Positions 45,986 to 50,895 of a stretch of DNA of 64,000 nt are shown piece by piece (position 1 is the stretch's first letter; each line of letters opens with the position of its first letter). The notes below the pieces were generated by a model. The model had not been told where the DNA came from. It ran no database searches and saw nothing but the letters and a program-made list of their open reading frames with translations. This DNA is from Platycnemis pennipes (lineage: Eukaryota; Arthropoda; Insecta; Odonata; Platycnemididae). A program made the translations under genes and the position numbers. The stretch lies in contig OW121855.1 of assembly GCA_933228895.1 (NCBI GenBank), positions 48,932,698 to 48,996,697 on the forward strand, read 5' to 3'.

Positions 45986-47909
45986 TTATTATTGTGACTT
46001 GGCACATATGGCGACAAAAGCTTAATGATTGTCCAGGTATATGGTTATTTTGGGAAATATTATTGCTAAATAATATTTCCCAAATTGGGAGATATTATTT
46101 AGCAGCGAAATTGGGAGTTATTTTCCTGGATGTGGAGATCTAAAGGAGGCTGAATCAAAGCGGGTACGAGAGGAGAAGAGGGGGTAAATGTTGCGTAGGC
46201 GGCCGCCTTTGATCACGCCTGCCGCACCCCTCGTCATTTGGGCCACTACCCACGCCTCGCTTATGCTCGAGCCCCTGTCAGCGAATTATTCTCTCAGCTC
46301 ATATTATTTACAAATGGATCACGACATATGGTCCTCAGACTACCACCGTCGTTGTCTCCGGTTCGAGTCCAGTTTGGTGGCATATTGTTTAGCTTTAATC
46401 CAATCTTTCTTTTTTCTTAGGGGGAAACTCCAGGTATAGTACTTTATTTGTCGAGAACTGTGTACATCCCTGAGTACCTTCCGTTGATAGTTCCGGCACT
46501 GGATTTATCTCAAATATTTCCCCGCTCCCTAAAAAGTCACCTCTCAAAATCACCCATTGGTCCCAAGTTCCGCGAGAGACATCAGCTATGGAACTCATTC
46601 CTTGTCTAAATGCGCTACAAATACTGTTCCCGGCACGCTACCGCAAGGGTGCTGTAACGGATGACTCCACACCATGCTCCACGTACATAAATAATAGAAA
46701 TTCATATTATTAGCGGCTGCAATGCCGATTTTAGTGTAAAAATTCATTTACTATGGGAATACGGTGAATTTACACGCAACACAGCATCATGCAGCACACT
46801 AACATTATACTGGATAGATTATGCACAATTTTTATAGTTATTTCTGGTTACGCGACAAACATCCAGTGAGATATCAAAGTTAAATAACCTTTTTTTACGT
46901 TCAGAGGTTTATGCAGACAGCAAAAGGTACATTACCTAATTATCTTCACGGTAACTTCGATTTCATCAATCATTGCCCCTTATTTTACGCGGAGATAATG
47001 CTTTTTTTAATCGCTGTCGTATTAGCTAACATCCCTAATTCCTTCTTTCTGATCTAAAGTACATTTCACACGATACTTGATCCAGCAGCAGACCTAGTAT
47101 GCTAGCCGGTACTTGATATTGAGGATGGAATCTAGCATGATCGGGACTACCCAGGTTTCAGAAATCGTTGAACTGGTGTTTGTGAGTAAACAGTGCCATA
47201 TCCTCCGTTGTGAACCCTGAAAAAATTGAACATTTCCTCAAAAGAAGGTGACATAACGTATTCGATTTTGTCATACGCCAATTGGTCCACATTATCAATT
47301 TAAAAAAAAGTGAATAGTGCACAGTAACTGTAACTGCTAACGTGATCGGTAGACGGTGAAGTGGTTCTATTAAGAGCTAGTAGCAAACTAGTACTGCATC
47401 AATTATGAAATCAAGTAGTGCTCTTGTGGGCAAAATATGATGTGGGTAGGAACATTCAGGTATCGTACTGAGATTTTTAGTGGCATGGGAGTGATTCGCT
47501 CATTCATTTAAATATTGCAGATTCATCTAAAAAAATGTTTTAACTCAAGTTAATTTGAAAATTTAGGGTCATTGATGAAAAAAGAGACAAGTCTGGCAAG
47601 GACCAAAGGGCCCCGGGTTCAAATCCAAAAGAAGGGTTGTTGGACAGTCCAAGATACATACCTCTTAGCTGCGTACTTACAACAGATCTTGTTGGGAAGC
47701 TACATGTAACTCAGGAAATGAAAATATCCCGCATAATCTGTGGCACAAAGTCACACGTCACTAGGCTTAGTAATAAGTGAGCTCTACCATCAACAATGAA
47801 ACCGGCCTCTGGTAAAAGAAACCAAAACTTAGTTTTAAAATGTGAATGGCTGTTTCCATTTCAAAGTTTGGAATCTCACTTCTTTCTCCCTCGTGGTTAT
47901 TAATATACG
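45986..47909. other. Unassigned stretch
   Basis: No gene. Contains a 15-bp-stem hairpin (46050-46083), a tRNA-like 3' half near 46333-46385 (TCCGGTTCGAGTCCAG) and another near 47607-47640 (CCCGGGTTCAAATCC). Confidence 0.4.
46050..46083. repeat. Perfect 15-bp stem, 4-nt loop hairpin
   Basis: TTGGGAAATATTATT is followed by GCTA and the exact complement AATAATATTTCCCAA. Just downstream, GATATTATTTAGCA (46091-46104) repeats part of the motif, so the site may be part of a larger decayed repeat. Confidence 0.8.
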
Positions 47910-47948
47910 CACAGTGGTCCAGATTTCAAATCTGACTGGACAAAACCT
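47910..47948 (+). other. Left RSS-like terminus (7-23-9)
   Basis: Heptamer CACAGTG (47910-47916), spacer 47917-47939 (23 bp), nonamer-like ACAAAACCT (47940-47948; RSS consensus ACAAAAACC). The spacer is itself nearly palindromic (GTCCAGATTTCAAAT..CTGGAC). Confidence 0.75.
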
Positions 47949-49018
47949 CAAAAGTCGACTTTTTAGGAATGTCTTCAGCCATTGGGTGATCAAAGTAGAA
48001 TAACCGTGGAACCATAAGATATCAATTAAATTACGTTTTGTCAAGGGAATGGCAATCATGAGAGTGTTAAACCTTGGGCTTTCGTTTGACAGTTGCGCCA
48101 TATCTTGGCGGCCGAGATTTTAGCGCTCGGCAATAATGATGATATTATGATTATTATGTGTGATTTTTTCATTTTTTGGCTTCATTATCCACCTTGAAAG
48201 TATTACTTTTATTTTGATACGAAAAAGAAGCATTTTCTCTCATGTAAGCATGGTTAAAAAATCCAGAAATGATGAGTTCAACTATAAGTCAAAGGGGAAT
48301 AAAAACAAGTATTTTCGCAAGCCTTAAATAAAAAACGCCGCGACATTCTGCGATAATTTTTCGCCCAGTGGACAATAGTACATCCGAGAGTCTTTACAAA
48401 TAATAATTAGCTGCAACCTCGCGCAACCTCTGTAGTTATTCTTACTTTTATCTGTGACGTCACAGGTTACAATGGTGGACCAAATAGTGTGACGCAGTAT
48501 GCTGATCATATGTTAAAGTTCCTTAGAGCATATTTCATTTATATTTCAATAATATGTACAGATACATATTCGAATGCCTTATACGTTGACTCTGGTCTTG
48601 AATGGGTAATGGTTATTAGGGCTAGAAGCTGAGTGAAGAGGATAAAAATATGGGAGAAAACTAGCGGTCAGTTTATGGATGGGGGAAGCAGCAGAGAATG
48701 GGCGAGGAAAGAGAGAGGGAGACCTTTCTTATATCCGTCTTCACTTCTTATCTACCCTTCTGCTCCCTCTGACCCAATGTGCATACTCCCACATATGGTC
48801 CCCTAGTTCTTCGTACCAAGGAAAAATCTCCCCAGTTGTGCGTCTCTTGTGCGTCACCTTTGGACGTGTTCGAGTGTTGTGTCTAGTGTTCCGTTGCTGA
48901 AATATTGTGCATTGCAATTTTTCCCTCATTCATTACACATTGTAACTGCTCTCAATCGTGGTTTTGTTTGCGCTTCCTTGATAGTCAACGCTCAACTGAA
49001 ATTTGCATTATTTTGGGC

Positions 49019-50119
49019 ATGGAGATCGCAGATGCAGGTATGATATACTTATATTGATTTCCTCAGTAAGAAATGATTGTCTCATGACATGATGTTAGTT
49101 TCGCATTATCAAACGGGAAAAATGGGAATTTTTTTCAATTAGGTCATAGGTTACCTTAAGGTAACATGAGTTGACAATTGGCTGAAAATGATGGACACCA
49201 CTTAAGCATCCTTTTATGTTTTCAGGAATCATTTCTCGTCAAGATTTATTTGAGGTTTGGCGAAGTGAATCGGATACAATTAGAAGAAACTCCTGTGTGC
49301 TAGAGTATATTTTGAATCTTTATAACTAAAAAGAGTGTAGTGACGATGTGAGAGCTTCTGTGAAAAGAATTAGCGATGATTTTTGTTTGAAAGTTAAGAA
49401 GAGATGGTAATCTAATTTTCGTGTACGGTCTAAATTCATGCCAAAGAACTCAACTTCAAGGGGTATTGAAATTTCCAGATATTGTGAATAATGCAATCGC
49501 TGGTGGTCGACAATCATCTCGAAGTACCCCAAGCTTGTCTGATTCACCCTGTAATCCTTCTGGTCGCCCGAAAAAGGTTTTTGAGGAAAGCAGTGCTAGA
49601 ACTAAAAAAAGGAGGGTTGAGTCTTTAATATCAAATACAACATGCAAAGAACTGGTTTTTGCCACTGAGGTTAGCTTACGATCAAAGGGAAGAAGATGTG
49701 CAGCTGAAATTGTGAATCAGGTGTCGAATCTCTCCCTGTAGAGGGCCACAAGAATTAAGAAAGCCTTCACTTCGTCTAGTGTTAAACTTCCGATTAAACT
49801 TACACCTCAACAAGCTCTGGCGACGTATGTTGATAATAGGCTAACGAAAAAGCAATACCTCTCAAGACGCCATGAAGCTTAAAAGGCAGAATGCAGACAT
49901 ATATCCCACGTACAATTCAATTATTGAAGCAAAAAACAATGCTACCCGGAAAACATACATATCACCGAAGTGTCCGCCGAAATAGAGCTGCAATCCCTTC
50001 TAGATCACATTGTAAAACGGCTGATTTGCGTGCAATATGAAGTTCTCAAGCAGCTGAATTTGGGTACAGATACTCTCCCACAATTAACGGCAGTTTTGAC
50101 AGATTTGATTTCTGAGATG
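49019..50119 (+). pseudogene. RAG1-like/Transib-type N-terminal gene, two exons, broken
   Basis: Exon 1 from ATG (49019) encodes MEIADA, with a donor GCAG|GTATGA at 49037/49038. The intron is 49038-49225, ending TTATGTTTTCAG. Exon 2 continues in frame as GIISRQDLFEVWRSESDTIR, then DDVRASVKRISDDF. Stops lie at 49327-49329 and 49408-49410. After a frameshift near 49415-49450 the frame holds GRPKKVFEESSARTKKRR and TPQQALATYV, a stop at 49739-49741, another at 49880, then in a third frame ADIYPTYNSIIEAK, and back to CYPENIHITEVSAEIELQSL and LLDHIVKRL. These blocks follow the order I remember from invertebrate RAG1-like TE proteins; the name is an inference. Zinc and DDE catalytic parts are absent. 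Confidence 0.65.
49038..49225 (+). other. Intron in the transposon relic
   Basis: A 188-bp GT-AG intron. Removing it joins GATGCAG to GAATCATT and gives one uninterrupted frame over the junction, from the ATG to the first nonsense codon 97 codon positions... in exon 2 terms at 49327. Donor and acceptor are both close to consensus. Confidence 0.6.
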
Positions 50120-50856
50120 TAGGTAAAGAAATACTTTCTTGGACTATTGTTTGTAAATGTTTTAGCTAATGCCTTTGAATTTCTCATCCCCTTGTGCCTA
50201 AGGATAGAACACTTTCACATTTTACAATTTGATTGTTCACATAATTAAATAATATATTTTGTAGTAATATTATTCATGATTGCTAAATTTTAAAGCGTAG
50301 GTAATCTTCATGTGTGAGTGATATAAATGTTTTTAAGCGTAAAGAATACCGTGTAAATTAGGATCAATCGTTGGATTACGAACCCAAATGTTGTTATTAT
50401 TTTACTTTTTGTACTTACTTTTCTTGTGTATTGTTTACCATTTTCAATTTTATAACGCATACCTAATTCAGTTGTATAATAACTTTAAGATATTTTGTGA
50501 AATGGTCAATGAATTGGATTCTATGGTTGCATTTTATGTTCATATTCTGGTTATTTTCATCATTGCTATTATGGATATATAGCAGGTATTGTTTTTAATT
50601 TAAAGTTATGCATTTCATCCCTCAGTAGATTAACATTCTGATTTTTTAGCATAATGAAAATTTCATAAACATTGAAATCCAAACTTTTCATGGTTCCAAA
50701 TTTCTCTCGCCAGAGAGACAGCGAGTTAATGATATTGTAATAAAAAAATTAATATTTGTATAAAATTTGTAAACTTACGTCGAATGGCATTAGTAAACGT
50801 TTTCACATCATACAAGACGAGAAAAATCACTTTCCACACGCAAGGCCCTTCACAGA

Positions 50857-50895
50857 CAATTTTGTCCAGTCAGATTTGGAATCTGGACCACTGTG
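50857..50895 (-). other. Right RSS-like terminus (7-23-9)
   Basis: On minus: heptamer CACAGTG (50895-50889), spacer 50888-50866 (23 bp; one mismatch to the left spacer), nonamer-like ACAAAATTG (50865-50857). Beyond the nonamer the two ends no longer match. Confidence 0.75.

Follow-up and report, generated by a model that had tools for sequence, protein, structure and literature searches.

The subject of this work is a transposable element in a stretch of 64,000 nucleotides from the odonate Platycnemis pennipes (NCBI GenBank assembly GCA_933228895.1, contig OW121855.1, positions 48,932,698 to 48,996,697 of the forward strand). We call this whole stretch the window. It almost certainly holds a young non-autonomous member of the Transib family of cut-and-paste transposons. 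The element spans 47910..50895 on the + strand (2986 bp) and is a deletion derivative. Its ends resemble recombination signal sequences (RSSs). Full-length copies with the same ends pose a catalysis question for the RAG1 lineage. Judged from their sequences, they carry asparagine (Asn) instead of aspartate (Asp) at the second catalytic site, although they seem to have moved recently.

Ends and copies of the element

The element is flanked by 36-nt inverted repeats, identical at 35/36 positions. The left repeat lies at 47910..47945 (+ strand), with the heptamer CACAGTG at 47910-47916, a spacer at 47917-47939 and the nonamer-like ACAAAACCT at 47940-47948. The right repeat lies at 50860..50895 (- strand). 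Its heptamer is at 50889-50895, its spacer at 50866-50888 and its nonamer-like ACAAAATTG at 50857-50865. An earlier note on this DNA had described inverted termini of CACAGTG, 23 bp and ACAAAA, agreeing at 29/30 positions of heptamer and spacer, and our re-reading confirmed them.

Compared with ACAAAAACC, the left nonamer matches at 7/9 positions and the right one at 6/9. Across the whole window, 0.22% of the 9-mers reach 7/9 and 1.5% reach 6/9. The offset of 23 bp scores best at both ends (offsets 0-79 compared). CACAGTG occurs eight times in the window, counting both strands, and a nonamer of at least 6/9 stands at 23 bp only at these two ends. The pattern is not due to chance, because the same end recurs at 39 further places in the host genome.

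We scanned the host genome (1.79 Gb, 88 contigs) and located copies by their left end. With 40/74 candidates scored, the search that the earlier note had proposed found this terminus at at least 40 places, including the window copy. The alignment starts at most 3 bases from the heptamer in 38/39 of the other places. Both ends are present in 28 of the 40 copies and the left end only in 11; in one, no left end passes the threshold. The heptamer is exactly CACAGTG at 51/56 ends of the both-ended copies. Their left nonamer is ACAAAACCT in 26/28, and the right one is ACAAAATTG in 23/28 and ACAAAACTG in 4/28. The ends of this Transib family are of the CACAGTGGTCCAGATT type.

Two marks of Transibs are found here. 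The ends are inverted, start with CAC and have an RSS-like heptamer. Likewise, the family makes 5-bp GC-rich target duplications, although the window copy has none. Identical duplications (CGNYG) flank 20/28 both-ended copies, with a G+C content of 77%. In these 20, position 1 is C in 18, position 2 is G in all 20, position 4 is C in 11 and T in 9, and position 5 is G in 17.

The both-ended copies fall into three size classes and eight copies of other lengths. The 2.98-kb class comprises the window copy, L009, L011, L012, L013, L016, L019 and L021. The class of 2.61-2.63 kb comprises L015, L017, L022, L023, L024 and L036, and the 4.20-kb class L025, L027, L030, L031, L032 and L033. Identity with the window copy is 99.56% for L009 (duplication CGACG), 99.60% for L011 (duplication CGCTG) and 94-97% for the remaining five members of the class. 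L011 carries broken gene pieces of the same lengths as those of the window copy. Given these equal lengths and the close identity, the gene was already broken when the 2.98-kb copies spread. The sequences therefore present the window element as a young non-autonomous passenger and not as a fossil. The word relic, used by the earlier note, does not fit a copy that is about 99.6% identical to two copies with perfect duplications.

RSS-like Transib ends were reported by Kapitonov and Jurka in 2005, as cited in PMC8355894 and PMC6941560. The comparisons made here draw on excerpts of these and the other papers cited (further Transib literature: PMC7204232, PMC4411706). In these excerpts, Transib ends have RSS-like heptamers and nonamers, with symmetric spacers of 20-22 bp and, in a few cases, asymmetric 12/23 (+/-1) spacers (PMC8355894). 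Some have identical consensus heptamers and nonamers (PMC6941560), and those of HzTransib show little or no nonamer similarity (PMC8289069). Our element shares the heptamer and nonamer resemblance with the published RSS-like ends. In contrast, both its spacers measure 23 bp. It also differs from HzTransib (PDB 6pqn-6pr5) in joining an exact RSS heptamer to an A-rich nonamer at 23 bp. The ends are ordinary for Transib, though unusually RSS-like. Since RSS-like Transib ends are already described in the excerpts, a symmetric 23/23 Transib with exact CACAGTG is a new member of that series.

Some other observations concern the ends and their surroundings. The 23-bp spacer contains a dyad, CAGATTT-C-AAATCTG, at 47920-47934 and at the matching place of the right end (6/7 pairs there). 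A protein may make its second contact there. Immediately interior to the left end, positions 47946-47967 form a near-palindrome of 22 nt whose central 14 bases are perfect. Beside the element, a tRNA-like box B (GGTTCAAATCC) at 47600-47640 suggests an adjoining short interspersed element (SINE). ARAGORN found no tRNA in the window, box B region included, and an Rfam scan of the window gave 0 matches. The terminus had 0 matches in a viral contig collection.

The broken gene and its full-length counterparts

We cut the six-frame translations of the element at stops and scored the pieces with a profile from 121 relatives (656 positions). Four pieces of the + strand match the profile in order. The first (49391..49738, profile 85-148, E 7e-16) contains the GRP motif of the nonamer-binding-like domain. 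It is followed by 49742..49879 (profile 153-195, E 3.7e-7) and, in another frame, by 49845..49982 (profile 197-218, E 4.6e-4). The last piece is 49928..50119 (profile 214-257, E 8.5e-17), where the transposase homology stops. No element piece matches profile 258-656 with E < 1. The gene is interrupted by stops and frame changes, and its catalytic region is missing. This agrees with the earlier note, which had claimed a broken gene between the ends, inferred a Transib and proposed such a profile search. The pieces belong to the N-terminal part of Transib transposases, and the four ordered matches run from E 4.6e-4 to 8.5e-17.

With tblastn at E 1e-3, 119/121 relatives match the window, every match falling within 49231-50101. 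A profile of 25 relatives finds HzTransib at E 1.4e-178, and RAG1 and RAG1-like chains follow far behind (1e-7 to 2e-12). By these scores, the relatives of the window gene are Transib transposases. The piece 49928-50122, searched by itself, has HzTransib as its sole PDB match, a weak one alone (E 0.27). Single pieces of the window gene gave nothing above the Pfam cut-off. The transposase profile had no confirmed relative in viral and prokaryote contig collections. The profile of the nonamer-binding-like domain (116/121 relatives) scores 18.1 bits on a RAG1 stretch; none of 2000 shuffles exceeds 8.7 bits, but the E-value at PDB size is 0.022. We claim no novelty for this domain, because a GRP nonamer-binding-like domain is already published for both of two Transib subgroups (PMC9435367, excerpt).

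The deletion junction lies at 50097..50098 (element position 2188). About 1.22 kb of the 4.2-kb copies is gone there, including all three catalytic positions. In HzTransib the catalytic residues are D126, D225 and E436 (PMC6941560), all beyond the end of the homology in the window copy. The ~1.2 kb lost from the window copy is retained in six 4.2-kb copies, five of which have an unbroken frame of 716 codons. The transposase gene of the family is represented by the pieces in the window copy and by 4.2-kb copies with the same ends. Among the copies retrieved, the complete frame is confined to the 4.2-kb class. Models of the 716-codon protein predict a likeness to HzTransib and RAG1. Pfam gave nothing above the cut-off for this protein, and 2/8 relatives pass the RAG1 cut-off. 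Another copy of the long class, L037, has a nested insertion with a 649-codon open frame.

The 4.2-kb copies show the expected motifs at the first and third catalytic sites, WGCDG and LSEEAQEA. The second reads TMVNGK, against TMVDGK or TMIDGK in most of the family. Its Asn aligns with HzTransib D225, and a numbering offset of 17 fits all three residues. So the full-length copies differ from HzTransib in having Asn for the second catalytic Asp. The residue, with codon AAC, is present in 12/12 copies spanning the site. They consist of eight long copies and four short stretches of older copies (86-92% DNA identity). No Asp copy of this family was found with 40/68 candidates scored; this is not proof of absence, because scans of the own genome score only part of the candidates.

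As to the D-D-E triad of Transibs, the window copy lacks the region and the long copies read D-N-E. The D-N-E reading leaves Transib descent unaffected and lowers the claim of catalysis. The earlier note had expected autonomous copies elsewhere in the genome and advised a search for full copies with a DDE core. Five full-length copies with intact frames do exist, but the second catalytic Asp reads Asn in all of them, so the core found is D-N-E.

Asparagine in other Transib sequences

The same genome contains many Transib families, many of them with open frames 650-730 codons long. With 76/4532 candidates scored, P0002 found 91 matches there. The second site was read at 70 further loci (about 220 bases retrieved from each), 64 by motif and 6 by tblastn. 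It is Asp at 61, Asn at 7 and glutamate (Glu) at 2. Around the catalytic site, at least 10 different sequences were read. The second site of L054 is also Asp. Both Glu loci, L096 and L097 (C44:149273993-149274213 and 149298956-149299176), have an in-frame stop and are 25 kb apart.

The seven Asn loci form a second Asn family on a separate branch: L127 (C11:63812050-63814300), L116 and L118-L122. The codon is AAT in the four copies read directly. L127 is open except for a gap of ~70 nt with GT...AG borders. This gap is probably an intron, because the matches of all seven copies split there.

Among 236 database relatives, the second catalytic site is Asp in 229 and Asn in 7, with no other letter. 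The first site is Asp in 233, with 3 gaps, and the third is Glu in 193 and valine in 1, with 42 gaps. The relatives of the protein library came from the best 120 of 212 and the best 120 of 166 matches. The Asn relatives are P0127 (Zophobas morio), P0134, P0140, P0144, P0145, P0153 and P0180. Like our family, they have Asn-Gly at the second site and keep the other two catalytic residues. Their proteins are 43-53% identical to that of L032. Glycine follows Asn in all 9 Asn-type proteins read. Of the 38 near-invariant columns with at least 4 departures, four have a single minority letter; the Asn site is one, and the other three are aromatic exchanges. If departures from Asp arose by random single-base changes, the chance that all six would be Asn is 6e-5 with a transition bias of 2, or 5e-4 with a bias of 4. 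The two Glu copies, which came to light later, break the rule of Asn-only departures.

The Asn rows do not form one group. On a 92-row tree they require 7 changes, at least 6 of them forced by well-supported branches. The approximately unbiased (AU) test rejects a single Asn clade (p 5e-6, 30 rows, 8 of them Asn, with the second Asn family left out). A 32-row tree that includes this family gives 8 changes, at least 7 forced. The rows were hand-picked, the 30- and 32-row sets after the 92-row result, and the parsimony counts do not separate gain from loss. Two Asn/Asp sister pairs are close: P0144/P0149 (79% identity) and P0145/P0154 (69%). A literature search for a natural Asn at the second catalytic site returned nothing relevant in its listings, and we make no wider claim from it.

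How the family may have moved

A Transib-type transposase, presumably a dimer, would bind and pair the two 36-nt ends. It would nick 5' of CAC and leave hairpins on the flanks, the route reported for HzTransib and RAG. The excised element would insert at CGNYG sites. The 2.98-kb class would have lost its catalytic region and, with its frame already broken, have spread by a transposase borrowed in trans. The window copy may have lost its duplication afterwards, or may have inserted aberrantly.

Two observations count against the pattern of the ends. The window copy lacks a target-site duplication: its flanks are ATACG and AGCTA (1/5 match), and the first outside bases differ. Its left and right nonamers differ in their last three bases. 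Against this account of movement, eight of the 28 both-ended copies have no identical duplication (L014, L021, L022, L024, L029, L034, L045 and the window copy). A check of these eight for shifted or cross-matching duplications found only L022 (1 base off) and L024 (15 bases off the left end). The 2.98-kb class is ~93% identical to the 4.2-kb copies in its left part and ~87% in its right part; with only this likeness, its direct parent was not found. Mobilisation in trans is itself something we infer from sequence comparison.

An old dead relic would account for the missing duplication, the stops and frame changes and the absent catalytic part. This is very unlikely, since the copy is 99.56% and 99.60% identical to copies with perfect duplications and its inverted repeats agree at 35/36. 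Real V(D)J signals, or a RAG1-RAG2-like (RAGL/ProtoRAG) transposon, would share the exact heptamer, the 23-bp spacing and the A-rich nonamer. We consider this even more improbable. At E 0.001, a PDB sequence search with the full-length protein matches HzTransib alone, and neither RAG1 nor RAG1L. Both ends have 23-bp spacers and are not paired under the 12/23 rule. Unlike the RAG1/RSS system of jawed vertebrates, no RAG2 partner is seen and the spacers are symmetric. L032 has a single long frame, the next largest being 130 aa; short frames were not searched for kelch or PHD domains, and a split gene could escape.

A young non-autonomous Transib is the reading we retain. Every copy found to span the second site carries Asn, which leaves more than one candidate for the transposase that supplies catalysis. 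The Asn-type transposase could be competent, so that the family moves itself, an idea to which we give slightly less than an even chance. The Asn would be tolerated, edited to Asp (A-to-I, AAY to GAY) or deamidated to it (Asn-Gly, a slow timer). The residue stands in 12/12 family copies, decayed ones included, with no Asp copy among the candidates scored, and in 7/7 copies of the second family on its separate branch. Among relatives, it appears in 7/236 with no other letter; at least 7 changes are forced on 32 rows, and a single clade is rejected on 30. The first catalytic Asp is invariant in the 233/233 rows with a residue. Perfect duplications flank all five intact copies, and four of these share 99.6-99.8% identity with one another. 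Against competence, two copies of another family in the genome read Glu, the RNA around the Asn codon folds into no strong hairpin (z -1.16), and a post hoc test gave no clear compensating column.

The coding differences point both ways. The fixed differences that set L027 apart from the remaining four intact copies comprise 12 synonymous and 6 non-synonymous ones, a synonymous excess over the expected 22% (P 5.6e-5; dN 0.004-0.006, dS 0.026-0.028). It favours a working gene and is not expected of passengers. Among the other four copies, 3-6 non-synonymous differences stand against 0-2 synonymous ones, and no constraint is visible. So the signal of constraint comes from one split.

Self-mobilisation by some route and passenger status seem about equally likely. 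As passengers, the copies would be moved in trans by an Asp-type Transib of the same genome, and the Asn-type transposases would be dead or regulatory, which we also place a little below even. We take HzTransib D225 to answer to RAG1 D708, so that the Asn here stands at the position of D708. RAG1 D708N binds DNA but has no catalytic activity (PMC12216023, excerpt). On a plain reading, the Asn proteins would therefore bind DNA but not cut it, which favours passengers and opposes self-mobilisation. Possible helpers exist: there are many other Transib families with open frames, with Asp at 61/70 further loci and in L054. Moreover, the non-autonomous classes of this family have clearly multiplied with no enzyme of their own. 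Nevertheless, the one Asp-type element read with its flanks had no similar end in the 2.0 kb before its frame or the 1.3 kb after it (the best had 17/36 mismatched, and its own ends were not found). Its protein is ~41-47% identical to the Asn type. Asn kept alike in old and young copies is not expected of passengers either.

The D-N-E copies matter more than the ends, since RAG1, whose D-to-N mutant serves as a dead control, comes from this enzyme lineage. We tentatively propose, while thinking it somewhat likelier to be wrong than right, that Transib repeatedly exchanged its second catalytic Asp for Asn. The D-N-E lineages would stay mobile through conversion to Asp (a deamidation timer or A-to-I editing) or through an RNase H-type site that tolerates Asn. 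If true, the transposase would have a natural throttle, and the RAG1 lineage would offer an exception to the fixed D-D-E rule. Continued movement of the Asn lineages would mean either that the catalytic rule is not strict or that the enzyme is controlled by a concealed conversion step. The ends, the Asn-type families and the Asp-type families occur in one animal genome, which makes the question directly testable.
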